This document shows positions 51,131 to 64,000 of a stretch of DNA of 64,000 bases, in pieces; positions within the stretch are counted from its first letter, which is position 1, and each line of letters opens with the position of its first letter. The notes under the pieces are model-generated. The model ran no database searches, was not told the origin of the DNA, and was given only the letters and a program-made list of their open reading frames with translations. Location: NCBI RefSeq assembly GCF_000786655.1, contig NZ_JROM01000045.1, positions 62,001 to 126,000 on the forward strand, written 5' to 3'. A program made the position numbers and the translations under genes. This DNA is from Kocuria marina (GTDB lineage Bacteria > Actinomycetota > Actinomycetes > Actinomycetales > Micrococcaceae).

Positions 51131-52879
51131 ATGCTCACGTACTCGCAGCTGCGCCGTTCCAGGCCCGGCCACCGCTCACGTGTTCGCGAGGAGGACTCCG
51201 TACGCCACGGGTGGGTGCCTGCCGGGAACCGGTGGATCGCTGTGGACGTGCACGAACCCACGGCCACCGAGCGCGGCGGGACCGTCATCATCGTGGGGTC
51301 CCCGGGACGCGAGCGCGTGACCCTGACCCGCAGCATGATCCACACGGCCCGGGCGCTGGCCGCTCACGGGTGGCGTGTGGTGCGCCTCGACTGGTCCGGG
51401 ACCGGTCAGAGCCCCACCGCCGAGGAAGCCGTGGACGCCGGACTGTGGGTCGACGACCTGACCACCGTCCGCGACTGGGCGAGCTCCCACGGCCCCGTCC
51501 ACGGGGTGGGCTTCAGCCTGGGCGGCACCGTGCTCGCCGCCACCGAGGATCATGGCTGGGCCTCCCGGCTGGTGCTGGCCCCCGTGTCCGGTAAGCAGTG
51601 GGTGCGCCACCAGAGCGCACTGCGCCGCATGGGCGGGCCCGACCTACCGCCCCGCGTGAGCGACGGCACGGAACTGATGAACCTGCAGCTGTCCTCGCAC
51701 GGCGCGGCCGCACTCAAGGCGCTGCCCGAGCCCGCGGACGATCCCGATCGTCGGATCCGTATCCTGTCCGACGAGGAAGCGGGCGCCCTCCCGATCAACG
51801 TGCACCCCCGCGCGGCCGCCGTCCCCGCCCGTCTGATCACCACCGTGCGCACCGCGCTGGACGCCGCCCCGGCCGGGACGACGCCGGATGACACCGCTCG
51901 TCCCGACGGGGACGGCCTGGTCCCCGAGCAGGAGATCACCGTGGACGTGGCCGGGACATCCGTGGTGCTGCGGCGCTCGACCAGCGGGGCCGCCCGACGC
52001 CCGGCCATCATCACCGAGCCGGTGACCCGCGACCACGACGCCCCCGGGCTGGCGTTCATCTCCCCCGGTTCGGAGGTCATGGAGGCCTCCGGCGGTCTGT
52101 GGCTGCGTACCGCGCTGCTCGCGTCCGCACGCGGCGCCGTGTGCCTGCTCGCCGAACGCTCCGACACCGGCGAGCTCGTGCGCTCGGACATCACGCGGGA
52201 CTCCAACCCTTACGCGCACCACACGCTCACCGAGTCGCGAGAACTCGTGATGCACCTGAGCGAACTTACGGACGGTCCGCTCCTGGGGGCGGGCATCTGT
52301 CTGGGCGCGTGGGGTCTGGTCGCCTCGGCCCACGAACTGCCCGCGACCGTGAGCGAACGACTCACACTCATGGTCATCAACAACGTGGCGTGGCAGCGGG
52401 CGCCGTGGCGCTACTGGCGCCAGGGACTGCGCGGCGGTCCCCTGGCCCCGGCCCTGCCCGGGCAGGAAGAGGCGGCGGCGGCGCCGTCGTCCGCTCCCGC
52501 CGACGACGCACCCGCCGGCTCCCGCTGGCATGCCGTCCTGGCCGGGCTCAACGCCTACGTGGGGACGACGGCGCGCACCGTGGTGCGTGGGACCCGTCAC
52601 CGCGCCCGCAACGCGTCACCGCGGGTCAATGCGCTCGCGGCCGGGGTGGGGGTCATCGACGTCCCGCAGCCCACGCTGCGCCGGCTCGCCAAGATCCCCG
52701 GACTCACGGTGGACGCGGTCTTCGGACCCGCCGACGCCAAGCACTGCGGGGTCACACCCCAGCGTCTGGGCCCGCGCAGCACGCTCACCGTCCTGGACCC
52801 GCTGGACCACTCGCTGTTCGCCACGGAATCGTGCCGCCGGATGGTGGATTACGTCCTGGTGTACGTGCCCGAAGCGTGA
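51131..52879 (+). CDS. Tandem double alpha/beta-hydrolase, paralogue A
   Basis: 582 residues, two alpha/beta-hydrolase halves. First half: TVIIVGSPGRERVTLTRSMI, WRVVRLDWSGTGQSP and HGVGFSLGGTVLAA with Ser in the G-x-S-x-G elbow. Second half (from about residue 285): GLAFISPGSEVMEASGGLWL, LLGAGICLGAWGLVAS with Cys at the elbow (GICLG, as in dienelactone hydrolases), and LDPLDHSLFATESC with a likely catalytic His. It is clearly paralogous to the gene at 61013-62686 (shared WSGTGQS/WSGTSES, LVLAPVSG/VLWEPVSG, INNVAW/LNNVAW). They resemble exosortase-system-associated hydrolases. Faces the aminoacyl-carrier operon. Confidence 0.7.
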   Translation: MLTYSQLRRSRPGHRSRVREEDSVRHGWVPAGNRWIAVDVHEPTATERGGTVIIVGSPGRERVTLTRSMIHTARALAAHGWRVVRLDWSGTGQSPTAEEAVDAGLWVDDLTTVRDWASSHGPVHGVGFSLGGTVLAATEDHGWASRLVLAPVSGKQWVRHQSALRRMGGPDLPPRVSDGTELMNLQLSSHGAAALKALPEPADDPDRRIRILSDEEAGALPINVHPRAAAVPARLITTVRTALDAAPAGTTPDDTARPDGDGLVPEQEITVDVAGTSVVLRRSTSGAARRPAIITEPVTRDHDAPGLAFISPGSEVMEASGGLWLRTALLASARGAVCLLAERSDTGELVRSDITRDSNPYAHHTLTESRELVMHLSELTDGPLLGAGICLGAWGLVASAHELPATVSERLTLMVINNVAWQRAPWRYWRQGLRGGPLAPALPGQEEAAAAPSSAPADDAPAGSRWHAVLAGLNAYVGTTARTVVRGTRHRARNASPRVNALAAGVGVIDVPQPTLRRLAKIPGLTVDAVFGPADAKHCGVTPQRLGPRSTLTVLDPLDHSLFATESCRRMVDYVLVYVPEA

Positions 52880-52932: not shown

Positions 52933-52974
52933 GGAGCCCCGCACGGGTGGCGTTGCCAGCACGTGCGGGGCTCC
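52933..52974. terminator. Bidirectional terminator between convergent genes
   Basis: 13-bp perfect arms GGAGCCCCGCACG / CGTGCGGGGCTCC, 16-nt loop, followed by an AT-rich GTTTATAAGG; lies between paralogue A and the GH2 gene. Confidence 0.8.
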
Positions 52975-53041: not shown

Positions 53042-55858
53042 CTACCCGGACTCCGCGTTCACCGGAACCGACGGGACGCCCAGCGCCCGCATGCGGGTGG
53101 CTGCGCGTCCCTCGTCGGTGAGGATTCCGCGGACCGGAACGTGCACCGTCTCACCCGGGAGCACATGGACGTAGCCGTCCTCGGCCGCGGCCCCGCGGGG
53201 CAGGTCCAGGGCCACGAATCGCGCGAGCCCGGACGCCCTCACGGCCACCACCCACTCCCCCTGTTCGGCCCGGATCCACTGAGCATCGAGTCCCGGATCG
53301 AGCGGGTCATTGCGTCGCGGTCCGCCGGTGAGGTGGACGTCCCGCGCCAGCACGCGACCGGAGGGGTCCACGAGCAGGGCGGACACGGCGTCGTACTCCC
53401 GCTCCCCGAAACCGTAGGCGTGGTCGAGGTCCCGGAAGGTTCCGTCCGCGAGATCCGCGCGGATCACGGTCTCGCCGCGCGCGGGCACCGTGACCGGGAT
53501 GTCGAGGGGCTGTTGGCAGCCGCCGCGCACCGTGGCCACGGTCAGTCGCAGCGTGGCTGTCAGCGGGGTCGGGCCGTCGTTCCAGACGTGGACGGGCAGC
53601 CCGTCGCCGCCGGCGGGCAGGAAGGACACGGCCACGGGCGCACACGCCCGGCGCATCCCGTACCACGCGGCGGTGGGCCGCCCGGACACATCCAGGACAC
53701 CCCACCCGGGCCCCGCGGCCGTGGACAGCGCCGAGAGCACGAGGGCTCCCCGGCACGGCGAATCCCCACTGCGCCACTGGGCGAAGGTCCGCTGGAACAC
53801 GTGGGCGAGCGCGGCGCGCTCGTACTCGAGGCGCTCGGCGTGATCCGTCCCTGCGCCATCGGACACGGGCTGCGCCGGGGTCGCCAGACCGGCGTCCGGA
53901 TCGCTGTCCCGGTCCAGGAACAGGCGGTGGACGTAGATCGCGGTGGTGTCCTCGAAGGTCCATTCCGCCCCTGGATCGTGGGCCACACCGGCGCGCCACG
54001 CGTCCGCGGAATCCGCATCGTCCAGCGGGCCGTCCGTCCCGAACTGCTCCCGCACCGCGGCGGGTTCCGGCGGCACCGCGAAGGCCAGCGCCTCCGCCGC
54101 GAACCGCACCCCGCGGGTCACCGCGTCCTCGAGCGGTCGCCCGTAGGCCCCCACCCCGAAGTAGTGGGAGACACCATCGGCCGCGTCCGTGGGAGCTGCG
54201 GTCGGCACCGACGACGACGCCGCCCGCTCCCCCTCGGTCTCGCCCGTCTCGTACGCGTGCTGCGCGGCGTCCAGGTCCGCGTCCGAGCACGGGGAGGACG
54301 GGACGACCACCACGTCCGCGCCGGCCTCCCCGACCGCGCGGGGGACGTCCCTCAGGATCACGTCCGTGCGCCACTGCTCGGCGGGCCGGCCCGCGAGCGC
54401 GGGGGCCTGGATGACCTCGGTGCCCCCGGAGATCACGACCGTGGACGGATGAGAAGCCAATCGCGCGGCCAGATGTCGGACCTCATCACGCAGCCCGGCA
54501 CGCCACTCGGGATCGTCCGGCGGGTCCTGGGGTCCCAGGGCCACGTCCTGCCAGACCATGAGACCCAGCTCGTCGCACGCGCGGTGGAAGTCCTCGGTCT
54601 CGTAGCACGCGGTTCCCGGGACGCGGATCATGGTGCTGCCGCCCGCGCGCAGGCGTTCCAGCACGTCACGGGTGCGCTGCGGGTCCGCGGCCACCTCGAA
54701 GGGGTCCGCACCGGCCCACACGGCACCCCTCACGAACACGGGAACGTCATTGATCCGCAGGGCCAAGCCATGATGGTCCCGGTCCCGCGGCTCGGCATAC
54801 ACCGACCGGAACCCCACGGCGTACGTGTACTCCCCCTGCCCGGTGCGCACCCGCACCCGGTACAGCGGTTGCTCGCCCATCCCGTGCGGCCACCACAGCG
54901 CAGGGTGGGGCACGGTCAGGTCCACGGTGAACGCTCCGTGCGATGTCGTATCGGACGCGGTCACGACGCGCTCGGCGGTCACGGGTTCCGCGTCCACCTC
55001 CCGGGGAGGCTCCACGGTGATGCGTACGGTGTCCCGGGCGTCTTCCGCCCCAGCGCCGGGCTCCGTCGGAACGCCAACGTCCACTGAGCACCCGACGTCC
55101 GCCAGACCCGCGGCCGCGCCTGCGTTCCCAGCCGCGCCCGCGCTCCCTGCCGTGTCCGCGCTCCCTGCCGTGTCCGCGCCGAGATCCGGGGTCGTACCCG
55201 CGACCCCACCGAGTTCCACGGTCACGACGCCGTTACCGTCCTCCCCGACCCGCGTGCGTACCGCGCGCGGTACGAGTCCGAGCGAGGGGTCGGGAGCGGC
55301 GTCGTCGTCGGTGGAGGAAGTAAAGGGGACGGCGCGCAGGCCGCCCCACGGACCCAGGACGGGGAGCGCACCGGGCCAGTCGATCGAGCCGATCAGCGGG
55401 GTGCGCCGCCACCGCAGCGAGCGGTCGGACATTAGCGGTGACAACCAGCGGGCGCGCGGCTTGCGCGGCACGCTCACGGACGCCGTGGGCAGGATCCGCA
55501 GGGCGATCTCACACGGCCCGGACGGCAGCTCCACGATCACGTCCCACGGCGCAAAGGCGCTGTGGGACTCGTGCACGACCCGGTCCGCGACCAGCAGCTG
55601 CGCCACGGTGGCCACGCCCGTGGACTCGAACCGGTGCCGACCACCGGCGGTCGTGACCCGGGTGCGGTACTCCCACACGGTGTCCGGGCCGTCAGAGGCG
55701 AACACGGCGGCCACGCGGTCCTCCCCGAGGGCGTCCCGCAGCGCACCGGACACCGTCCCCGGGACCCGCGCGGAAAACCCACGAGCGAGGGCATCGCCCG
55801 GGTCCTGCGACGGGTCGAGGCGCCGGAGCGTCCACGCGGCGTCGCGCACCCCGGTCAC
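53042..55858 (-). CDS. Divergent glycoside hydrolase family 2 protein (beta-mannosidase-like)
   Basis: 938 residues, cytosolic (no signal peptide). Family layout is kept: sugar-binding N-terminus (ARVPGTVSGALRDAL), Ig-like domain, then a TIM barrel with RGAVWAGADPFEVAADPQRT, TMIRVPGTACYETEDFHRAC and LMVWQDVAL. The acid/base region reads VVISGGTEV where beta-mannosidases have WCGNNE, so Glu is kept but Asn replaced; the nucleophile region reads VRFAAEALAF where SEFG is usual, again with Glu kept. Activity may be altered. Contains a perfect 18-bp tandem duplication (ADTAGS repeated) and several Ala-rich insertions. GTG start overlaps the DUF1839 stop; last gene of the operon. Confidence 0.75.
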   Translation of the reverse strand: MTGVRDAAWTLRRLDPSQDPGDALARGFSARVPGTVSGALRDALGEDRVAAVFASDGPDTVWEYRTRVTTAGGRHRFESTGVATVAQLLVADRVVHESHSAFAPWDVIVELPSGPCEIALRILPTASVSVPRKPRARWLSPLMSDRSLRWRRTPLIGSIDWPGALPVLGPWGGLRAVPFTSSTDDDAAPDPSLGLVPRAVRTRVGEDGNGVVTVELGGVAGTTPDLGADTAGSADTAGSAGAAGNAGAAAGLADVGCSVDVGVPTEPGAGAEDARDTVRITVEPPREVDAEPVTAERVVTASDTTSHGAFTVDLTVPHPALWWPHGMGEQPLYRVRVRTGQGEYTYAVGFRSVYAEPRDRDHHGLALRINDVPVFVRGAVWAGADPFEVAADPQRTRDVLERLRAGGSTMIRVPGTACYETEDFHRACDELGLMVWQDVALGPQDPPDDPEWRAGLRDEVRHLAARLASHPSTVVISGGTEVIQAPALAGRPAEQWRTDVILRDVPRAVGEAGADVVVVPSSPCSDADLDAAQHAYETGETEGERAASSSVPTAAPTDAADGVSHYFGVGAYGRPLEDAVTRGVRFAAEALAFAVPPEPAAVREQFGTDGPLDDADSADAWRAGVAHDPGAEWTFEDTTAIYVHRLFLDRDSDPDAGLATPAQPVSDGAGTDHAERLEYERAALAHVFQRTFAQWRSGDSPCRGALVLSALSTAAGPGWGVLDVSGRPTAAWYGMRRACAPVAVSFLPAGGDGLPVHVWNDGPTPLTATLRLTVATVRGGCQQPLDIPVTVPARGETVIRADLADGTFRDLDHAYGFGEREYDAVSALLVDPSGRVLARDVHLTGGPRRNDPLDPGLDAQWIRAEQGEWVVAVRASGLARFVALDLPRGAAAEDGYVHVLPGETVHVPVRGILTDEGRAATRMRALGVPSVPVNAESG
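55141..55176. repeat. Perfect 18-bp tandem duplication inside GH2 gene
   Basis: CGCTCCCTGCCGTGTCCG occurs twice head to tail; encodes repeated ADTAGS on the minus strand, in a low-complexity linker. Confidence 0.85.
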
Positions 55859-56961
55859 TCCCCCAGGCCCAGGGCCTCACGCACCGCGCGCATGCCCGCG
55901 GTGTGCCCGGCCACGAACGCCTCCGCGGACGAGTCGATGCGCGGTGTCCTGCCCGAGGCCGCCCGGGCCAGCTTGAACTGCAAGGTCTTGGCCGCGCCGG
56001 CGGCGGCGTCGAATTGCTCGGCAGCCTCGATCAGCTGTTCCGCATCCAGGTCGCTCGGCCACTCCTGCGCACCGCGGGACAGGTACCGGCACGCGTGGGC
56101 CGCGAGCCCGGACGTGAGACCGGCCTGGCGCGTCGTCGCGAACGAGTACTGGTGGAAGTACTCCATGCCCCGCTCGGCGAGCACCGGGACGTGCTCCCGG
56201 ATCGCGGCCACGAGCCGGTCGGCCGGATCGGGGTGCGCGGTATTGCCCGCCCCGGCGTCCGGGGCGCGGCGCAGGTGTCCCCGCGCGATCTCGACGGCGC
56301 GCTGCCACAGCGCCTCGGGCGCCAGGGACCGGATGCCGTCCAGGCGCACGAGTTCCACGTACGGGTACGGGACCCACCCGGAACCCACACCCGTGCCCAG
56401 CGCGTTGTCGAGGTCCTCCCCGTGCAGCACGTGGACGCCGTCGTTGTGCAGGTAGACGAGCTCCCCCGCGGCCGGATCCAGGCGCAACGGCACGATGGAC
56501 GTCTTGCTGTGGGCCCGCCCGTAGGAGACGCCCTCGGTGTCCGGGAGGTGGTAGGCGTCCACCTCCACGATCAGGGCGTCCCCGCGGGACATCACCAGCT
56601 GCACGTGCTCGGCCAGGGGCCGCCACGTGTCGTACTCCCCCACCGTGAGGCCGTAGAGCGTCTCGAGGTCCTCCTGCCGGGGCTTGAGGAACTCCCACTG
56701 GTCCCCCAGGAAGTCCGCGCTGAACGCGGCCCCGAGCATGGGAAGCGGGTCCAACCCGAGGGTCGCGGTGAGCCCGATCCACACGTCCATGTAGCAGTTC
56801 GTGGGTGACCACGGTTCCGCCGGGTCGTGCAGGACGGAGCGCGGTGCGTTCGCCACGGTGAGCGACTCGCACCCGCGCACGGCCAGGACCTCGTGGCCGA
56901 AGGGCTCCCGCGCGAACGCGGTACCCGCCGACCCACCGTGGTTCACGGTCACGGCGGTCAT
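55855..56961 (-). CDS. DUF1839 family protein
   Basis: 368 residues, soluble. CYMDVWIGLTATLGLDPLPM, DFLGDQWEFLKPRQEDLETL and VEVDAYHLPDTEGVSYGRAH follow DUF1839, whose members in rhizobia are encoded beside amino acid:carrier-protein ligases and carrier proteins. YHLPDT and HSKTSIVPLRLD with HNDGVHVLHGED suggest a papain-like or butirosin-H-like acyltransferase fold with conserved Cys/His, as in BtrH-type N-terminal domains; this comparison is inference. Both ends overlap neighbours by 4 nt, so it is tightly coupled to the ligase. Confidence 0.75.
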   Translation of the reverse strand: MTAVTVNHGGSAGTAFAREPFGHEVLAVRGCESLTVANAPRSVLHDPAEPWSPTNCYMDVWIGLTATLGLDPLPMLGAAFSADFLGDQWEFLKPRQEDLETLYGLTVGEYDTWRPLAEHVQLVMSRGDALIVEVDAYHLPDTEGVSYGRAHSKTSIVPLRLDPAAGELVYLHNDGVHVLHGEDLDNALGTGVGSGWVPYPYVELVRLDGIRSLAPEALWQRAVEIARGHLRRAPDAGAGNTAHPDPADRLVAAIREHVPVLAERGMEYFHQYSFATTRQAGLTSGLAAHACRYLSRGAQEWPSDLDAEQLIEAAEQFDAAAGAAKTLQFKLARAASGRTPRIDSSAEAFVAGHTAGMRAVREALGLGE

Positions 56962-57899
56962 GGCAACCCCAGTTCCTGACGCACGGTCGCGGGCCACGCG
57001 GCGGTGTCGAAACCGTGGCGCATGGCCAGGGCCAGGGCCACCCGCTCCAGACCGAAGCCGAAGCACGCCGAGTGGGCCACGGCGCCGTTGGCGGTGTGCA
57101 GGTGGAAGCTCTCACCGAAGTGGTCCTCGTGCAGGTTCGCGGACGCGATCGCGGTGGGATGCCCCGGGTAGACCTCCGTGAGGATCTCGAACTTCAACTG
57201 GGCCTCGCGCTGACCCGCGCTGAGCAGGCGCCCGGCGCGGCCGAAGAACGGGTCGTTGGCGGTGTCCGCCTGGACCTCGAGCCCCAGGGAGCTCAGCAGG
57301 TTGGTGCCGGCCTCGAGCCACTTCTCGCGGTGATCCCGGGCCTCCTGCGGCGTGCCCAGGCACACCGCCTCGAACATCCGGAAGGTCACGAAACGCATGG
57401 GGTCCGGGCTGGGCTCGTGGCGGTAGCACTCGCCCACGAGCTCGAACACTGAGCCGTCCACCTGCGAGCCCTCGAGGTACGCGTACAGCGGGTGGCACAC
57501 CGCGGGGACCAGCGCATGACCGGCCGGGGTGAGCTGGGCGGACCAGTCACCGTGCTCCTCGTACGTGGCGAGCAGCTCACGGTGGGCTTTGTTGTCGCCC
57601 TCGAACGCGGAGATGGTCCCGAGCAGCTGTGGAAAGGACGCGACGTAGTCCGTGCGCTCGAGCAACCGCGTCCCGTTGACGGGTGGGAAACGCAACCGGC
57701 GCGTCCCCGCGTCCGGGGACAACCGCGCCGCGACCTTGCGGGCCGCCGCGGCGATGCCCTGCACGACGTCCTCGGCCTGCGGACCGAGCCCGGTCACGCC
57801 GTCCCCGAGGGTGGGCAGCAACCAGCCGTGGGCCTCGAGGCCCTCGCGGAAGGTGTCCTGCAGCTGGGAGAGGTCCTGTGTGGTGTCCGTGGCGCTCAT
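56958..57899 (-). CDS. Amino acid:[carrier protein] ligase (SerRS-like)
   Basis: 313 residues. It is a free-standing class II catalytic core related to atypical seryl-tRNA synthetases without the tRNA-binding arm. Seen: RFPPVNGTRLLERTDYVASF, HALVPAVCHPLYAYLEG, VGECYRHEPSPDPMRFVTFR (motif 2 with R-x-E) and AVAHSACFGFGLERVALAL (motif 3). Cys in AVCHPLY, Glu in motif 2 and Cys in SACFG match the zinc ligands of the characterised rhizobial enzymes, which activate Gly or Ala with ATP and load it on a carrier protein. ATG overlaps the dehydrogenase stop by 4 nt. Confidence 0.88.
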   Translation of the reverse strand: MSATDTTQDLSQLQDTFREGLEAHGWLLPTLGDGVTGLGPQAEDVVQGIAAAARKVAARLSPDAGTRRLRFPPVNGTRLLERTDYVASFPQLLGTISAFEGDNKAHRELLATYEEHGDWSAQLTPAGHALVPAVCHPLYAYLEGSQVDGSVFELVGECYRHEPSPDPMRFVTFRMFEAVCLGTPQEARDHREKWLEAGTNLLSSLGLEVQADTANDPFFGRAGRLLSAGQREAQLKFEILTEVYPGHPTAIASANLHEDHFGESFHLHTANGAVAHSACFGFGLERVALALAMRHGFDTAAWPATVRQELGLP

Positions 57900-59101
57900 C
57901 GTTGCCCCCTGGAAACGAGTTGGAGTGTGGCGGTGTGGAGCAGGATGCGGTCGTTGTTGACCATGACCGAGGGCCCGATGCTGTCCCGGTACAACCGGGC
58001 CAGGCTCACGGGCGAACGGTTGGCGAAGGCGGTGATACCCACGATCACCATGGCGTCCCCCACGATCCGACGCACGGCTTCCGCGCCCGAGACCTTCAGG
58101 GTGTTCATGGCGATCGCGAACTGCATGGATTCGCTCACGGCGGGGTCGTCCCACGCGGCCTCGTAGCGGGCCACGCTCGCGCGCACCACGTCCGTCATGG
58201 ACTGCAGCTGCACCTCGAGTTCCGCGAGTCGCATGGCGGACGGCGGGGTGGTCCCCGGGGTCTTGCGCGCGGCCTTCTGCACCACGGACCGGGCGGTGAG
58301 CCCGGCCTGGGTGGCCATGCCTAGCCACGCGGAGGCCCACAGGCAGTGGGCCGCCGGGAGCATGGTCTGCGCGGAGATGGTCTCGAACAGCACCGTGAAC
58401 ATGGCGTCCGCGGGCGTGGTGGCGTCCAGCTCGAAGGACTCGGAGCACGTGCCCCGCATCCCCAGGGCGTCCCAGCCGCGCTGGCGGTCCAGCTGGAGGT
58501 TCTCGGCCTCGACCACCAACAGCACCTGGTCGCTCGACGCCGCGTCCTCGCTGCGCCGCGCGGTCACCAGGATCGCGTCCGCGTACGCACCGTAGGAGAT
58601 CACGGGGCAGCTCTTGTGCAGGGCCACCCGGCCGTCCTCGATCGGGCGCACGGCGCACGTGGAATTGCGGGTGTCACCGCCGATCTGGGCCTCGGTCGTG
58701 GCGGAGGCCAACAGCAGCCCCTCGGCGGCCACGCGGCGGGTGTAGTCCCGCAGGAAGTCGGTGTCCGCGTGGCGCGTGAGGCACAGCACCTGGGAGTGGT
58801 GCATGGCCAGGATCATGGCCGTGGAGGTGCACTCCCGGCCCACGCGCTCGAGCATCCGGCACAGCTCGGTGATGCTGTAGCCCAGCCCGCCGTCCGCTTC
58901 CGGGATCGGCGCGGCCAACAGGCCCTGGTTGCGGGCCTCGTCGATGGCCTCCCGCGGGAACCGGGACTCCGAGTCCACGGCGTCCGCGAACTCGCGGGCC
59001 ACGGCGGCCACGGCCTCCGCGCGCGCGGCGACGCGCTCGGCCCGGTCGGTGTCCTCGGCACCCCGCTGCGGGGTGTCGGTCAGTACTGCATGATCAGTCA
59101 T
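57896..59101 (-). CDS. Acyl-CoA dehydrogenase family flavoprotein
   Basis: 401 residues. FPREAIDEARNQGLLAAPIP, GLGYSITELCRMLERVGREC, LLLASATTEAQIGGDTRNST, ALHKSCPVISYGAYADAILV, GTCSESFELDATTPADAMFT and the C-terminal helical VSGAEAVRRIVGDAMVIVGI match an ACAD fold with FAD. In this setting it probably dehydrogenates an acyl or aminoacyl chain held on the carrier protein rather than on CoA, as known for aminoacyl-carrier dehydrogenases. The start overlaps the ACP stop by 8 nt. Confidence 0.85.
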   Translation of the reverse strand: MTDHAVLTDTPQRGAEDTDRAERVAARAEAVAAVAREFADAVDSESRFPREAIDEARNQGLLAAPIPEADGGLGYSITELCRMLERVGRECTSTAMILAMHHSQVLCLTRHADTDFLRDYTRRVAAEGLLLASATTEAQIGGDTRNSTCAVRPIEDGRVALHKSCPVISYGAYADAILVTARRSEDAASSDQVLLVVEAENLQLDRQRGWDALGMRGTCSESFELDATTPADAMFTVLFETISAQTMLPAAHCLWASAWLGMATQAGLTARSVVQKAARKTPGTTPPSAMRLAELEVQLQSMTDVVRASVARYEAAWDDPAVSESMQFAIAMNTLKVSGAEAVRRIVGDAMVIVGITAFANRSPVSLARLYRDSIGPSVMVNNDRILLHTATLQLVSRGQR

Positions 59102-59348
59102 TGTTGATCGCCTCCACGGCCTCGGTGATGGAGTTGATGGACGTGAACGTGGCCTTGGTCAGGCGCTCCTCGGGGAACTCGATGTCGAACTCGTCCTCCA
59201 GGCCCAGCATCACGTTCACGGACGCGTGGGAGGTCATGCCTGCGCGGTACAGGTCCGCGTCCGCGGCGATCGTCCCGGCGTCCTCGGACAGCTTCCCGTG
59301 ATGACCCAGCACGGAGCGGACGGTGGTCTCGATGGCGGTGGAATCCAT
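59094..59348 (-). CDS. Acyl carrier protein
   Basis: 84 residues, acidic, four-helix ACP pattern. DLYRAGMTSHASVNVMLGLE holds the phosphopantetheine Ser at about residue 40; the usual DSL is TSH, as in carrier proteins paired with amino acid:carrier-protein ligases rather than fatty-acid ACPs. EDEFDIEFPEERLTKATF follows. Encoded between the holo-ACP synthase and the dehydrogenase; probable substrate carrier of this pathway. Confidence 0.9.
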   Translation of the reverse strand: MDSTAIETTVRSVLGHHGKLSEDAGTIAADADLYRAGMTSHASVNVMLGLEDEFDIEFPEERLTKATFTSINSITEAVEAINND

Positions 59349-59430
59349 GGGGTGAACCTCTTTCGGTTGATGTGGTGGTTTTCGGTGTCCGCGCCCCGGG
59401 TGCCGGTCGGCGCGGTGGTCTGGCCTCCGG

Positions 59431-59883
59431 TCAGGGCCGGGGTGAGCGGATGGCCAGGGCCACGGCCATCGCGAAGCCGCCGTCGTGGGACGTGCTCACG
59501 CTCCACGCCCCGAGTCCGGCGCCGCGGGCCAGGCTGGCGGCCGTGCCCCGCAGTTCCACGCGTGGGGCACCGTGGGCGTCCGAGCGGATCATGATCTGGG
59601 GCCAGGCCACGGCGTCGTCGGCGCTCGGGCGCAGCACCTTCAGCACGGCCTCCTTGGCCGCGAAGCGCCCCGCCACGGACTCCGCCGCGGGCATACGTCC
59701 TTCCGGACGCGTGAGGTCGGTGATCTCCTCGGGCGCGAACACCGCCCGCAGGTACCGTTGCCCGCGCTGTGCGAGCGCCTCGGCCACGGGCGCGACCTCC
59801 TGCAGGTCGCAGCCCACGCGCGGTACGCCGACGACGCCGTCCCCGGCCCCGGCCCCGCGTGCGGTCACGGGCGCGCTCGTCAT
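59431..59883 (-). CDS. Holo-[acyl carrier protein] synthase-like phosphopantetheinyl transferase
   Basis: 150 residues from ATG 59883. VGVPRVGCDLQEVAPVAEAL corresponds to the Asp motif G(I/C)D, RYLRAVFAPEEITDL to the F-x-x-x-E motif, and VAGRFAAKEAVLKVLRP to the W/F-(S/A)-x-KEA motif of AcpS; GAWSVSTSHDGGFAMAVALA ends the fold with the SHD/H. Converts the neighbouring apo-ACP to the holo form with CoA. Starts inside the esterase stop (ATGA). Confidence 0.85.
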   Translation of the reverse strand: MTSAPVTARGAGAGDGVVGVPRVGCDLQEVAPVAEALAQRGQRYLRAVFAPEEITDLTRPEGRMPAAESVAGRFAAKEAVLKVLRPSADDAVAWPQIMIRSDAHGAPRVELRGTAASLARGAGLGAWSVSTSHDGGFAMAVALAIRSPRP

Positions 59884-61025
59884 GACGAGCTCCGTGAGGT
59901 CACGTCCTCGAACTCCGAGGGCACCGACGGCTGGGGCGAGGTGCGCTTCACACCCACGCGTTCGGCCCAGCGTCCGAGCGCGACCGTGGCCGCGGGGGTC
60001 CAGCACGGGAACTCGTGGCCGCCGTTGCACTGGCCCGCCTGGCCGTACTCCGTGTACTGGTAAGGCGAGCTTTGCGAATCGAGTTTGCGGGCCATGGTCA
60101 CCGTGGTGTCCCTGAGAGCGGGTTCGATGTCTCCCGCCTGCCCGTTTCCGCGGCCGGCAAACAGTTGCACGTGGACGTTCTTGAGGCGCTCGCTCTGGGT
60201 CACGGGGTCGTGCGCCTGCCACTGCTGTTCCGTGGTGGTGGAGCCGTCCCCGAACAGCGCATCCGTCTGGCCCGTGGCCTCCTTGGATGCCTCTTGGAAA
60301 TAGTCCACGGCGTCGCTCGAGGACACGTCGAGCAACCCAGACAGGCTCACGGCTTCCCCGAAGAGATCGGGGCGTTCTTCCGCGTACCGCACTGCGCCGT
60401 AACCCCCCATGGAGTTACCCAACACCACGCGGTGCTCGCGGTCCGCCCTGGTGGACAGGTGCTGATCCACCCACGGGACCACCTGGTCCAGGTGGAACGT
60501 TTCCCAGTTCTGCGTGAGTTCTTCCTGGGACGCCCAGTCCGAGTACCAACCCACCTTGCCCCCGCTCACGATGACCGTGATCACGGGCAGGCCCTGGGTG
60601 AGCTGCTCGGCCTGACCCGCCTCGTACCACTGCAGGGCGGGGGCCTCCGTGGCACCGCTGCCCGGGAGGAGATACACCACCGGGTACTTCTTCGCGGGGT
60701 CGTAGTCCGGCGGGGTGATCACCACCACGGAGTTGCGCCCGCCCGGGGCCTCGGCGGAGACCTGGTCCGTGCTCACCGCGAGCTCCGCGGCGCGGTCTGA
60801 GAGACCCCGCGCGCCCGTCACGGTGATCCCGTGGGACGGTTGCGTGAGTTGCTGCGGGTCGGCGAACCCCACCCGGGACAGTGCGGCGTCGTCGAAACCC
60901 AGGCTCTCACCGGAGGACGACGGCGCGTGGTCGCCGGACCCGCCGGCCGCGCAGCCGCTCAGCAGCACGGCCGTGAGGGCACACCCGGCGAGCGCGCGGG
61001 CGCTGCGTGTTCTCAGACGGCGCAC
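59880..61025 (-). CDS. Esterase lipoprotein (esterase-D/PHB-depolymerase-like)
   Basis: 381 residues. Lipoprotein signal: RRLRTRSARALAGCALTAVL then LSGCAA (Cys about 25). The hydrolase domain has YPVVYLLPGSGATEAPALQW, HRVVLGNSMGGYGAVRYAEE (Ser in GNSMGG), VHVQLFAGRGNGQ and CNGGHEFPCW (His). Exported and membrane-anchored, so it would act on the pathway's product outside the cell, for example as a transferase or esterase like mycolyl-type enzymes. The GTG start at 61025 overlaps the upstream hydrolase by 13 nt. Confidence 0.8.
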   Translation of the reverse strand: MRRLRTRSARALAGCALTAVLLSGCAAGGSGDHAPSSSGESLGFDDAALSRVGFADPQQLTQPSHGITVTGARGLSDRAAELAVSTDQVSAEAPGGRNSVVVITPPDYDPAKKYPVVYLLPGSGATEAPALQWYEAGQAEQLTQGLPVITVIVSGGKVGWYSDWASQEELTQNWETFHLDQVVPWVDQHLSTRADREHRVVLGNSMGGYGAVRYAEERPDLFGEAVSLSGLLDVSSSDAVDYFQEASKEATGQTDALFGDGSTTTEQQWQAHDPVTQSERLKNVHVQLFAGRGNGQAGDIEPALRDTTVTMARKLDSQSSPYQYTEYGQAGQCNGGHEFPCWTPAATVALGRWAERVGVKRTSPQPSVPSEFEDVTSRSSS

Positions 61026-62686
61026 GGGACGACCTCCTCGGCGGGCGAGGGGCTCAGACCCAGGGCGGCGTCCACGATCTCGAGTGCCGTGAGGCGTGAG
61101 GCGTGGGCCTGCAGGGAGTGGTCCAGGGCGGGCACGTGGGCCACCCTGATCCGGCGACCCTGGCGCTGCAACCGGGCCAGGCCCTCCTCCCCGCGTTCCT
61201 GTTGGAACAGCAGACCGTCCTCCGGCCCGAAGTAGAACGTGACCTCGGCACCCCGGGACGCGTACTCCATGACCACCTCGGGCACGTTGGGGATGTTGCG
61301 CCGGCCCAGCACGAGCCACGCGATGTACGGCATGCGGCGGCGCACCCGGTCCTTGGCGCGCGTGCGCCAGCTCGTGGTGACCTCCACATCGCTCATGGTG
61401 CGCAGCTGTTCCAGCACGGCGTCCACGTCCCAGTTGCGGTAGAGCTTGTCGTAGTAGCTCTCCGCCGCGCGCCACGCCACGTTGTTGAGCACCACGCGAG
61501 TGGTCATGGCGCTCGTGGGCGGGGCCATCGCGACCAGCCAGCCGCCCACGCACAGCCCCACCCCGGTGACCTTCTCCCCGGTGCGCTCGGCCAGCCACGC
61601 GGCACCCACGTTCAGGTCCGCCACGCCCTGCCCCGTGTACGGGTTGATGTCCTTGACCTCGTCCAGGCCGGCGGCGTCACCGCAGTGGTGGCGCTCGATG
61701 CGCAACGCGGGGACACCGCGGGCGGCGAGTCGGCGTGCCTGCACGGTCCACAGCCCCGTGGGCCCGTCCTTGGGGTCCGCGGACGGCGGTGCGAGCACCA
61801 CCGCGCCCGCCCCGGTGCCGTCGCAGCCCACGGGGTGGGTGTAGGAAGCGGGCAAGTGGTCCGGGCCCAGCTCCAGCAGGTCCTCCTGGACCTGCGCGCC
61901 GAACTCCGCCACGTGGAAGCGCGCGGTCGCCGTGGGACGCCAGCCGCTCACGTCCACCCAGTCCTCCCTGTGGGACGTGGTGGGGACGGAATCGTCCAGT
62001 CGACCCACGAGGGCGGCGATCGCCTCCGGGCTCGCCTTCGCGTAGATCGCGGCCACGCCGTATAACTTCTTGGCGATGCGCCGGTCCTCCTCGCGCACCG
62101 TGATCAGACCCGGGGTCTTCATCTTGCGGGGATCCGGTAGGGCGCGGATGGCCGCGGCTTCGGCGTCGGTGAAGTGTGTGCCGCCGATCTCCACGCCGTC
62201 GGGGACCTCGGGCGGCAGGATCAACCCGCTCGTGCGCCGCAGGCCCGTGTACTGGCGCATGTAGACGGCGCCCGAGACCGGTTCCCACAGCACGCGCCGA
62301 TCGAACGGCAGGGGTGAGGTCGCGAGCACACCCGCACCGATGCGCAGCCCGATCCCGTGCACGGGCAGATCAGGTCCTACGAGCTCCCGCGCGGCACGGT
62401 GGGCCACCGCGAGGTCCTCGTGCCACACCTCGAGCGGGTTGCTCAGAACCGGACGCGCACCGGATTCGGAGGTCCCGCTCCACGCCAGGCGGATCACGAG
62501 CCACCCGGATTCCGCGGCGCGCGCGGCCACGAGGCGCATGCTGCGGTGACTCACGACCTCCTCGCGCGCCAAGGCCGGCGCCACGATCACGGCGCCGCGC
62601 ACACGATCGTCCGCGGGGCCGTGGACCCACGCGTGGATGGTGTGGTCGTGGTCCGTCAAGAAAGTTGCCTGCCCGGCAATACGCAT
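61013..62686 (-). CDS. Tandem double alpha/beta-hydrolase, paralogue B
   Basis: 557 residues, first gene of the operon. First half: AVIVAPALAREEVVSHRSMR, WLVIRLAWSGTSES and VHGIGLRIGAGVLA, in which the elbow Ser is replaced by Arg (GLRIG), so this half is probably not catalytic. Second half: AVVLAPPSADPKDGPTGLW, VTGVGLCVGGWLVAM with Cys at the elbow (GLCVG), and VPALDHSLQAHASR with the likely His. A Cys nucleophile suits thioester or thioacyl transfer. Start ATG 62686 with GGGGGAG; paralogous to 51131-52879. Confidence 0.72.
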   Translation of the reverse strand: MRIAGQATFLTDHDHTIHAWVHGPADDRVRGAVIVAPALAREEVVSHRSMRLVAARAAESGWLVIRLAWSGTSESGARPVLSNPLEVWHEDLAVAHRAARELVGPDLPVHGIGLRIGAGVLATSPLPFDRRVLWEPVSGAVYMRQYTGLRRTSGLILPPEVPDGVEIGGTHFTDAEAAAIRALPDPRKMKTPGLITVREEDRRIAKKLYGVAAIYAKASPEAIAALVGRLDDSVPTTSHREDWVDVSGWRPTATARFHVAEFGAQVQEDLLELGPDHLPASYTHPVGCDGTGAGAVVLAPPSADPKDGPTGLWTVQARRLAARGVPALRIERHHCGDAAGLDEVKDINPYTGQGVADLNVGAAWLAERTGEKVTGVGLCVGGWLVAMAPPTSAMTTRVVLNNVAWRAAESYYDKLYRNWDVDAVLEQLRTMSDVEVTTSWRTRAKDRVRRRMPYIAWLVLGRRNIPNVPEVVMEYASRGAEVTFYFGPEDGLLFQQERGEEGLARLQRQGRRIRVAHVPALDHSLQAHASRLTALEIVDAALGLSPSPAEEVVPCAV

Positions 62687-63210: not shown

Positions 63211-64000
63211 GTGGCAGCACGCGTCCTGATCATCGGACTCAACTATTCACCGGAACACACGGGCATCGCCCCGTACACCGCCGGCATGGCTCGCGCGCTG
63301 CGCGAGGAGGGATGGGACGCCCGGGTCATCACGGGTCTCCCGCACTACCCGCAGTGGCGCGTCCACGAAGGGTATTCGCACCGCCGCGCCGCGCACGAGG
63401 AGATCGACGGTGTACCCGTCCTGCGCGTGCCGCATCCCGTTCCCCACGACGCCGGACAGCTGCGCCGGCTGGGGATGGAGATCGTCTTCGGCCTGCGTGC
63501 CGCGACCGCCGCGTGGGGCGATCCCGACGCCGTCGTGGTCGTGAGCCCCGCCCTGTTCTCGTCCGCGATCGTGCGGGTGCGCGCCGCACTGAGCCGCACC
63601 CCGGTGATCGCGTGGGTGCAGGACATCTACACCGCCGGGCTCACCGAGACCGGCGCGGCGAGCGGACCCGTGGCGCGCGTCATGCGCGGCATCGAGAGCA
63701 CCTTCCTGCGCTCGTGCCAGGGGGTGGTCGTGATCCACGACCGCTTCTCAGACTATCTGCGCCGCGAGATGGCCGTGCCCACGCGCCGGATCAGCACCGT
63801 GCGCAATTGGACCCACATCTCCCAGACCCCCTCGGTGGACACCGACGAACTGCGGCGCCGCTTCGGGTGGGGCGCGGGCGACGTCGTCGTCCTGCACACG
63901 GGCAACATGGGGGCCAAACAGGACCTCGCGAACGTCGCCGCGGCCGCGGACGTGGCCGAGCGCACGGGAGCGCCGCTGCGGTTCGTACTCGTGGGCGGCG
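63211..64000 (+). CDS. WcaI-like glycosyltransferase (GT4), cut by right window edge
   Basis: 263 residues visible. RVLIIGLNYSPEHTGIAPYT, ARVITGLPHYPQWRVHEGYS, VIAWVQDIYTAGL and the start of the C-terminal domain (VVVLHTGNMGAKQDLANVA) match the WcaI/WcaC-type GT4 enzymes of colanic-acid-like exopolysaccharide loci. GT-B fold, probably transfers a sugar from a nucleotide donor at the membrane. GTG 63211 with GGGGGAGGAG. Suggests that an exopolysaccharide cluster continues to the right. Confidence 0.87.
   Translation, partial: MAARVLIIGLNYSPEHTGIAPYTAGMARALREEGWDARVITGLPHYPQWRVHEGYSHRRAAHEEIDGVPVLRVPHPVPHDAGQLRRLGMEIVFGLRAATAAWGDPDAVVVVSPALFSSAIVRVRAALSRTPVIAWVQDIYTAGLTETGAASGPVARVMRGIESTFLRSCQGVVVIHDRFSDYLRREMAVPTRRISTVRNWTHISQTPSVDTDELRRRFGWGAGDVVVLHTGNMGAKQDLANVAAAADVAERTGAPLRFVLVGG

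Follow-up and report, generated by a model that had tools for sequence, protein, structure and literature searches.

Characterised homologues of the SerRS-like amino acid:[carrier protein] ligases load glycine or alanine, and Mocibob reportedly treated the rhizobial systems built around such ligases in 2010. A note in proof by Iyer and Aravind from that year listed an acyl carrier protein (ACP), a redox enzyme, the conserved protein Atu2574, a glycosidase and polysaccharide genes around a SerRS-like ligase, and predicted that an amide would be formed with an amino sugar of the cell surface (PMC2922099). Judging by its position and description, Atu2574 would be the DUF1839 protein. Here, we describe an eight-gene operon with this gene set in Kocuria marina, located in a stretch of 64,000 nucleotides (nt; RefSeq assembly GCF_000786655.1, contig NZ_JROM01000045.1, positions 62,001 to 126,000; hereafter the window) of an assembly of 3.07 Mb across 62 contigs. 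A sequence-only reading of the window had taken the combination to be undescribed. This has to be corrected, as the core with its glycosidase and polysaccharide genes was already given in 2010, along with a closely similar mechanism, as a prediction only. We favour, with some reserve, the interpretation that the operon encodes a carrier-protein pathway in which a small amino acid, perhaps oxidised, is attached to a building block of the exopolysaccharide.

The ligase and its carrier protein

Reading the open reading frames (ORFs) of the window, we found that eight of them form one unit on the minus strand, running from an ATG at 62686 to the stop codon of the GH2 gene at 53042. The junctions, in transcription order, measure −13, −4, +82, −8, −4, −4 and −4 nt, with 4-nt overlaps at four of the seven and an 82-nt gap between the AcpS and ACP genes. 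The coordinates, strand and families of this tight unit, as they had been read from the sequence, were confirmed.

The SerRS-like amino acid:[carrier protein] ligase (56958..57899, minus strand, as are all operon genes below) matched NCBIfam NF005479, amino acid--[acyl-carrier-protein] ligase, at 5.6e-102; its 340.9 bits fall short of the curated cut-off, 357. It is 99% identical to the ligase recorded for Kocuria marina. It also matched the solved structure 4h2w_A at 3.3e-65 (residues 43–312) and Bll0957 at 1.5e-63. Residues C135, E177 and C279 were kept in all 42 aligned sequences; we take them to be the Cys-Glu-Cys zinc ligands, whose positions were transferred via the 4h2w alignment. The aminoacyl carrier protein (59094..59348; Pfam PP-binding, 1.8e-6; NF005480 above its cut-off) matched the carrier protein chain of the ligase's structure entry at 2.8e-17, and its phosphopantetheine site, judged from an alignment, is probably Ser40 in the motif GMTSHAS. 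A phosphopantetheinyl transferase of the holo-ACP synthase family (59431..59883; Pfam ACPS, 5.8e-14) is one of three family matches in the genome. Comparison with 4h2w and Bll0957 thus supports the earlier proposal that the ligase loads an amino acid on the carrier.

Conservation of the gene set

A scan for the ligase yielded 41 loci from two phyla; the counts given here are raw and uncorrected for relatedness. ACP, flavoenzyme, ligase, DUF1839 and GH2 genes lay on one strand and in the same order in 26 of them (L001–L014, L024, L025, L027, L028, L030, L032–L034, L036 and L039–L041), spanning Kocuria, Psychromicrobium, a Solirubrobacterales metagenome-assembled genome (MAG), Stappia and Rhizobium. 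Variovorax locus L038 held all five genes in rearranged order, and the complete eight-gene order was present in eight Kocuria loci (L001–L007 and L009). DUF1839 and GH2 were strictly paired: all 27 loci with one of them had both, and the remaining 14 had neither. A phosphopantetheinyl transferase gene was present in 26 of the 41 loci. The five-gene set also occurred on annotated plasmids of Azospirillum, Rhizobium and Caballeronia. On a Tsukamurella plasmid, ligase, ACP and phosphopantetheinyl transferase genes were embedded among exopolysaccharide glycosyltransferases, and no flavoenzyme or DUF1839 was annotated in that stretch.

Among 396 sampled actinobacterial genomes, 10 had ligase family matches (three above the cut-off), some with two or three per genome. 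As a stricter test of linkage, we searched 199 genomes of the Rhizobiaceae, the family of Rhizobium locus L041, for profile matches to DUF1839 and the ligase. DUF1839 was detected in 40 genomes, and the ligase exceeded its cut-off in the identical 40; three further genomes had weak ligase matches only. All 41 DUF1839 matches were 31–139 bases away from a ligase match. In each of the 20 of these 41 loci that were inspected, the five genes stood in order (one meets the contig end at GH2), with a double hydrolase nearby in 14 and a flippase homologue in eight. A gene order unique to this strain can be rejected on the basis of the 26 ordered loci and these 20 rhizobial ones. A ligase tree built from 42 rows needed three changes of the DUF1839 label, at least two of them forced by starred branches, and long branches met; the tree therefore shows neither a single cross-phylum transfer nor a single origin.

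Several loci deviated from this pattern in their own ways. A Propionibacteriaceae MAG carried a second, diverged ligase copy 3′ of the double hydrolase (L023:12823–13554). Related ORFs were found near the ligase in Microbacterium aoyamense (two, L016:7110–9861) and Humibacter albus (four, L035:5681–11289), where flavoenzyme, DUF1839 and GH2 were not in reach; the one scanned was an ATP-grasp protein, and ORFs of this type are possibly an alternative way of using the aminoacyl carrier. In Variovorax dokdonensis (L038:10879–13461), the ACP continues in frame into GH2 and the ligase is in two pieces, which may reflect decay or an assembly error. We set this fusion aside as a sign of contact between the two proteins, given the split ligase and an ACP end that looks truncated.

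DUF1839 as a candidate amide synthase

A 2023 survey placed DUF1839 among the papain-like folds, gave it a Cys-(Thr/Ser)-His triad and guessed at a role in glycan processing (PMC10318531). The DUF1839 protein of the operon (55855..56961; Pfam DUF1839, 1.3e-104) was modelled with AlphaFold2 from 22 sequences (mean predicted local distance difference test score (pLDDT) 86.9, predicted template modelling (TM) score 0.88). In a second-look structural alignment, the top match to this model was CcbD in complex with its carrier protein (Z 20.9, root-mean-square deviation (rmsd) 3.8), covering 298 of 368 residues at 14% identity. Next came chains of the AziU2-U3 complex (Z 19.0) and CtaG (Z 17.7), and the following row dropped to 8.9. 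AziU2-U3 chains and CtaG also led the Foldseek search, in which 11 rows had E < 0.001. BtrH, a papain-like transferase according to Iyer and Aravind (PMC2922099), was not among the rows listed in either fold search, which is uninformative.

CcbD acts in lincosamide synthesis, where carrier-bound proline is passed to a Cys and on to the amine of an amino sugar in a ping-pong reaction; arginines of CcbD that bind the carrier are named as well (PMC12945683). In DUF1839, Cys56, His151, Thr154 and His172 were invariant in all 22 sequences, and position 203 was Glu in 21 of them. According to the model, Cys56 opens helix 56–67, which is the first core helix. The fold comparison supports the view, also taken in the sequence-only reading, that DUF1839 moves the amino acid, as a predicted transfer enzyme and CcbD-like candidate amide synthase.

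The flavoenzyme

The gene between those of ACP and ligase, a position it holds in most loci, encodes a flavoenzyme of acyl-CoA dehydrogenase fold (57896..59101; Pfam Acyl-CoA_dh_N, 8.8e-15). In the sequence-only reading, it oxidised the carrier-bound amino acid to an imino- or dehydro-acyl thioester. The note in proof of 2010 guessed at monooxygenation for the redox enzyme (PMC2922099). Our model (pLDDT 90.4) matched the entire acyl-CoA dehydrogenase superfamily. The best 50 rows of a VIA-align search (Z 37.1–39.8) mixed dehydrogenases, monooxygenases and ColB1, an oxidase of assembly-line-tethered cysteine. The Foldseek top rows included the monooxygenases TdsC, KijD3 and DszC, with DnmZ lower and dehydrogenases at ranks 4 and 5. 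With rows tied in this way, we discarded the fold search as an arbiter between the two activities.

At the residue level, a profile alignment of 24 flavoenzymes had Val or Ile and no acid at column 381, which holds the catalytic Glu of medium-chain acyl-CoA dehydrogenase (MCAD). Similarly, for a helix G base of the isovaleryl-CoA dehydrogenase (IVD) type, none of positions 236–261 held a conserved acid in the 24 sequences, the exact equivalent residue not being fixed. Given the missing acid at the MCAD base position, we regard dehydrogenation to an imino or dehydro-acyl group as a weak part of the earlier proposal, though Asp/Glu384, three residues beyond the MCAD base column, was invariant in 24 of 24, so that the catalytic base may be shifted. 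The flavoenzyme might instead be a nitrososynthase-like N-oxygenase of an amino sugar, with the amino acid attached unmodified. The monooxygenases among the Foldseek matches would fit this, in particular KijD3, whose structure contains an amino nucleotide sugar according to the entry title, as would the missing acid. The dehydrogenases among the first five Foldseek rows, the mixed VIA-align rows including ColB1, the gene position between ACP and ligase and the invariant Asp/Glu384 argue in the other direction, and we consider an N-oxygenase rather improbable.

The double hydrolases

The first gene of the operon (61013..62686; assigned by NCBIfam and motifs) encodes a double alpha/beta hydrolase of 557 amino acids (aa) that had no Pfam match at E 0.01. 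It matched exosortase-A hydrolase 2 (TIGR03101) at 2.8e-19 with 69.7 bits (cut-off 202.75) and hydrolase 1 (TIGR03100) with 16.3 bits (cut-off 168.45). Its N-terminal half contains the elbow GIGLRIGA, and its C-terminal half contains GVGLCVGG, with Cys379, and His523. A second double hydrolase of 582 aa (51131..52879, plus strand; elbows GVGFSLGG and GAGICLGA) is convergent with the operon, 162 nt from the end of the GH2 gene. Two double hydrolases stand in tandem downstream of GH2 in four other Kocuria loci (L010, L011, L012 and L014), which supports counting both copies as parts of the system, the second as its ninth gene.

Of the 41 loci, 36 had a double hydrolase close to the ligase (a direct tblastn search with the 557-aa copy recovered 29), and none was found in L031 (a 3.9-kb contig), L037, L038, L039 and L041, three of which have DUF1839. 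Of 31 chosen double hydrolases, 30 matched exosortase-A hydrolase 2 and 28 hydrolase 1. When halves were scanned apart, the N-terminal half matched hydrolase 2 and the C-terminal half hydrolase 1 in Azospirillum (L057; 1e-18 and 5.7e-18) and in Rhizobium sp. NLR16a (L058; 6.7e-19 and 4.1e-16), and weakly so in Psychromicrobium (L013). The N-terminal half of the 557-aa copy matched hydrolase 2 (2e-13), as did its C-terminal half, weakly (7.1e-5). Speaking against the relation to the exosortase pair, the C-terminal halves of both window copies had no match to hydrolase 1, that of the 582-aa copy matching nothing. Judging by its Cys elbow and by its relatives, the C-terminal half of the 557-aa copy may nevertheless be hydrolase-1-like. 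The second-half Cys was present in 30 of 31 double hydrolases and His523 in all 31, with a varying first elbow (Ser in the 582-aa copy), so that the second half looks catalytic. In six exosortase loci, the hydrolase-1 elbow GLCDAA was found in all six and a GLR elbow in five. In two exosortase loci (L097 and L098), the hydrolases follow an ACP, with a TIGR03098 ligase and a TIGR03099 decarboxylase or an XrtA amidotransferase nearby.

In Rhizobium sp. NLR16a, a single 1103-aa frame (L058:20785–24093) encodes a flippase domain and the double hydrolase together, and the same in-frame join, with no stop codon, occurred in L099 and L113, two of eight further loci holding both genes among the 20 inspected. 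These fusions place the double hydrolase at a lipid-linked glycan. As a separate observation, the gene adjoining the double hydrolase in Stappia (L030:16256–17524) encodes a protein that resembles a GH5 cellulase by eye.

The double hydrolase could itself be the main acyltransferase, with DUF1839 and GH2 forming an accessory pair that takes off or edits incorrect glycan modifications. This would fit Curtobacterium and several loci of Propionibacteriaceae, in which ACP, flavoenzyme, ligase and double hydrolase are present and DUF1839 and GH2 are not in reach, as well as the strict DUF1839–GH2 pairing (27/27 vs 0/14) and the exosortase-A loci with an ACP beside hydrolases 2 and 1. Set against this are the amide synthase as top fold match of DUF1839 and the five loci showing no double hydrolase, and we judge a mere accessory role of DUF1839 to be unlikely. 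As a tentative idea, possible in our view though doubtful, the SerRS-like system and the exosortase-A module could be two versions of one machine, in which activating enzymes would charge an ACP, a hydrolase-2/1 unit (in some cases fused to a flippase) would transfer the acyl group to a lipid-linked repeat unit during export, and DUF1839 would act as a second, amide-forming transferase.

The glycosidase, the esterase and the polysaccharide surroundings

The last gene of the operon encodes a GH2 beta-mannosidase-like protein (53042..55858; Pfam Glyco_hydro_2, 2.6e-6), in which inspection by eye revealed no export signal. Glu481 and Glu589 were invariant in 28 aligned sequences, their catalytic roles being assigned by eye. 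The second gene of the operon (59880..61025; Pfam Esterase, 4.4e-34) encodes an esterase that is probably an exported lipoprotein because of its lipobox LLSGC. With occurrences in nine of the 41 loci, eight in Kocuria and one in Psychromicrobium, the esterase is a local addition to the core. A perfect 13-bp inverted repeat (52933–52974) lies between the convergent operon and second double hydrolase gene; it is terminator-like by position and was absent from the output of a T-run terminator scan.

On the other side of the operon, a WcaI-like glycosyltransferase gene starts at 63211 on the plus strand (63211..63999, continuing past the window edge), its best model scoring below its cut-off; this is the adjacent exopolysaccharide glycosyltransferase noted in the sequence-only reading. 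It is followed by a GDP-mannose dehydratase, with Wzz and a flippase homologue further on. The cassette was flanked by polysaccharide genes in both phyla. In Psychromicrobium (L013), we found group-1/4 glycosyltransferases and a bacterial sugar transferase, and in Stappia (L030) a polysaccharide synthesis flippase, a glycosyltransferase and a polysaccharide deacetylase; for these calls, each ORF cluster was represented by a single member. Picking the longest ORFs returned mostly shadow frames in the high-GC stretch L055, seven of nine without a Pfam match.

The earlier proposal left the acceptor as a glycan or a small metabolite. The neighbouring polysaccharide genes and the flippase fusion support the glycan, and the metabolite becomes the alternative: DUF1839 would join the aminoacyl group to a free amino sugar or amine, giving a lincosamide-like product or a signal molecule that GH2 and the esterase deprotect, and the polysaccharide genes would be mere neighbours. 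The nearest DUF1839 folds do come from natural-product pathways, namely CcbD and, presumably, AziU2-U3 and CtaG, and the plasmid loci of Azospirillum (L057) and Caballeronia (L059) have no annotated glycosyltransferase within 15 kb, in an incomplete gene table. Against it stand the glycosyltransferase, sugar-phosphate transferase and/or flippase genes that accompany the cassette in Kocuria, Psychromicrobium, Stappia and Rhizobium, and the three rhizobial loci in which double hydrolase and flippase are fused. Moreover, no recurrent exporter or resistance gene was noticed, in analyses that included no search aimed at such genes. On balance, a small-molecule product seems improbable to us.

A proposed pathway

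Under the carrier-protein pathway for exopolysaccharide decoration, the phosphopantetheinyl transferase would first produce holo-ACP, and the SerRS-like ligase would adenylate a small amino acid, which analogy suggests to be glycine or alanine, and load it on the ACP; both steps are suggested by family identity. From its context, the flavoenzyme may then act on the aminoacyl group held by the ACP or, with lower probability, on the sugar. Cys56 of DUF1839 would take over the acyl group and hand it on to an amino-sugar amine in a CcbD-like manner, as suggested by fold and context. Genomic context would further assign the double hydrolase, with the Cys-His-Asp set of its second half, to a further acyl transfer or to proofreading at the flippase, and the GH2 protein to a cytoplasmic trimming or recycling of the modified glycan. 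Within this pathway, we infer the acceptor, which amino acid is loaded, the redox reaction and what GH2 does.

Several observations weigh against this pathway. In 14 of the 41 loci, the ligase has neither DUF1839 nor GH2 in reach, so that another enzyme must do the transfer there; two of these contigs (L021 and L031) are shorter than 4 kb. No DUF1839 match was found in the genome of Curtobacterium locus L017, and the MAG of L018 has DUF1839 on a different contig from its sole ligase. The structural link to CcbD comes from the second-look alignment only, as CcbD was missing from the best 50 Foldseek rows, and the Foldseek top rows had rmsd values above 6 and TM values of about 0.5–0.6. The published triads also differ, with Cys-(Thr/Ser)-His in DUF1839 (PMC10318531) and Cys-His-Glu in CcbD (PMC12945683). 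Finally, the two plasmid loci lacking a nearby annotated glycosyltransferase do not fit easily. Taken together, the CcbD-like DUF1839 fold, the co-occurrence with the ligase in one bacterial family and the flippase fusion still point to amide-linked amino acids on exopolysaccharide units.

Comparison with known systems

In the literature searched, largely titles and abstract starts with most subscription papers outside it, we met no experiment on the cassette, no connection between DUF1839 and either CcbD or the exosortase hydrolases, and no product for the free-standing aminoacyl-carrier ligases derived from tRNA synthetases, whose structures have been solved. DUF1839 itself was mentioned in a single paper of that literature, and PMC13390465 and PMC12930378 had no bearing on the cassette. 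Nor did we find in this literature the CcbD match, the ligase–DUF1839 linkage, the DUF1839–GH2 pairing, the relation to exosortase hydrolases, the flippase fusion or the actinobacterial form, which we therefore regard as new. If correct, our proposal suggests a role for the exosortase-A hydrolases and names the proteins to assay.

The rhizobial ligase systems (Bll0957 and Atu2571–2574) share with the Kocuria operon the ACP, flavoenzyme, SerRS-like ligase, DUF1839, glycosidase and nearby polysaccharide genes. The Kocuria version differs in being actinobacterial and in having a phosphopantetheinyl transferase of its own, together with a lipoprotein esterase and a pair of double hydrolases. Of the rhizobial proteins, bll0957 and bll0958 are listed among those altered in a phaR mutant (PMC10888616). 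CcbD/LmbD and their carrier resemble the DUF1839 system in a near full-length fold, a Cys at a helix start and an expected carrier-bound aminoacyl donor, and they differ in sequence (14% identity) and, according to the literature, in the triad.

The exosortase-A (XrtA) module, which also lies in exopolysaccharide loci, likewise has an adenylating enzyme and a small ACP, and its paired hydrolases 2 and 1 show Arg and Cys elbows. However, its TIGR03098 ligase belongs to the AMP-forming acyl-CoA ligases, it has a TIGR03099 pyridoxal phosphate (PLP) decarboxylase instead of the flavoenzyme, its hydrolases are separate proteins, and the Kocuria double hydrolases score far below the curated cut-offs of the exosortase-A hydrolases. 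The Dlt and Alm systems use other enzyme families and form ester products, and we know of none with DUF1839, GH2 or a flavoenzyme. What they have in common with the pathway proposed here is an amino acid that is held as a carrier thioester and moved to an envelope glycan (for Dlt, PMC12930378).

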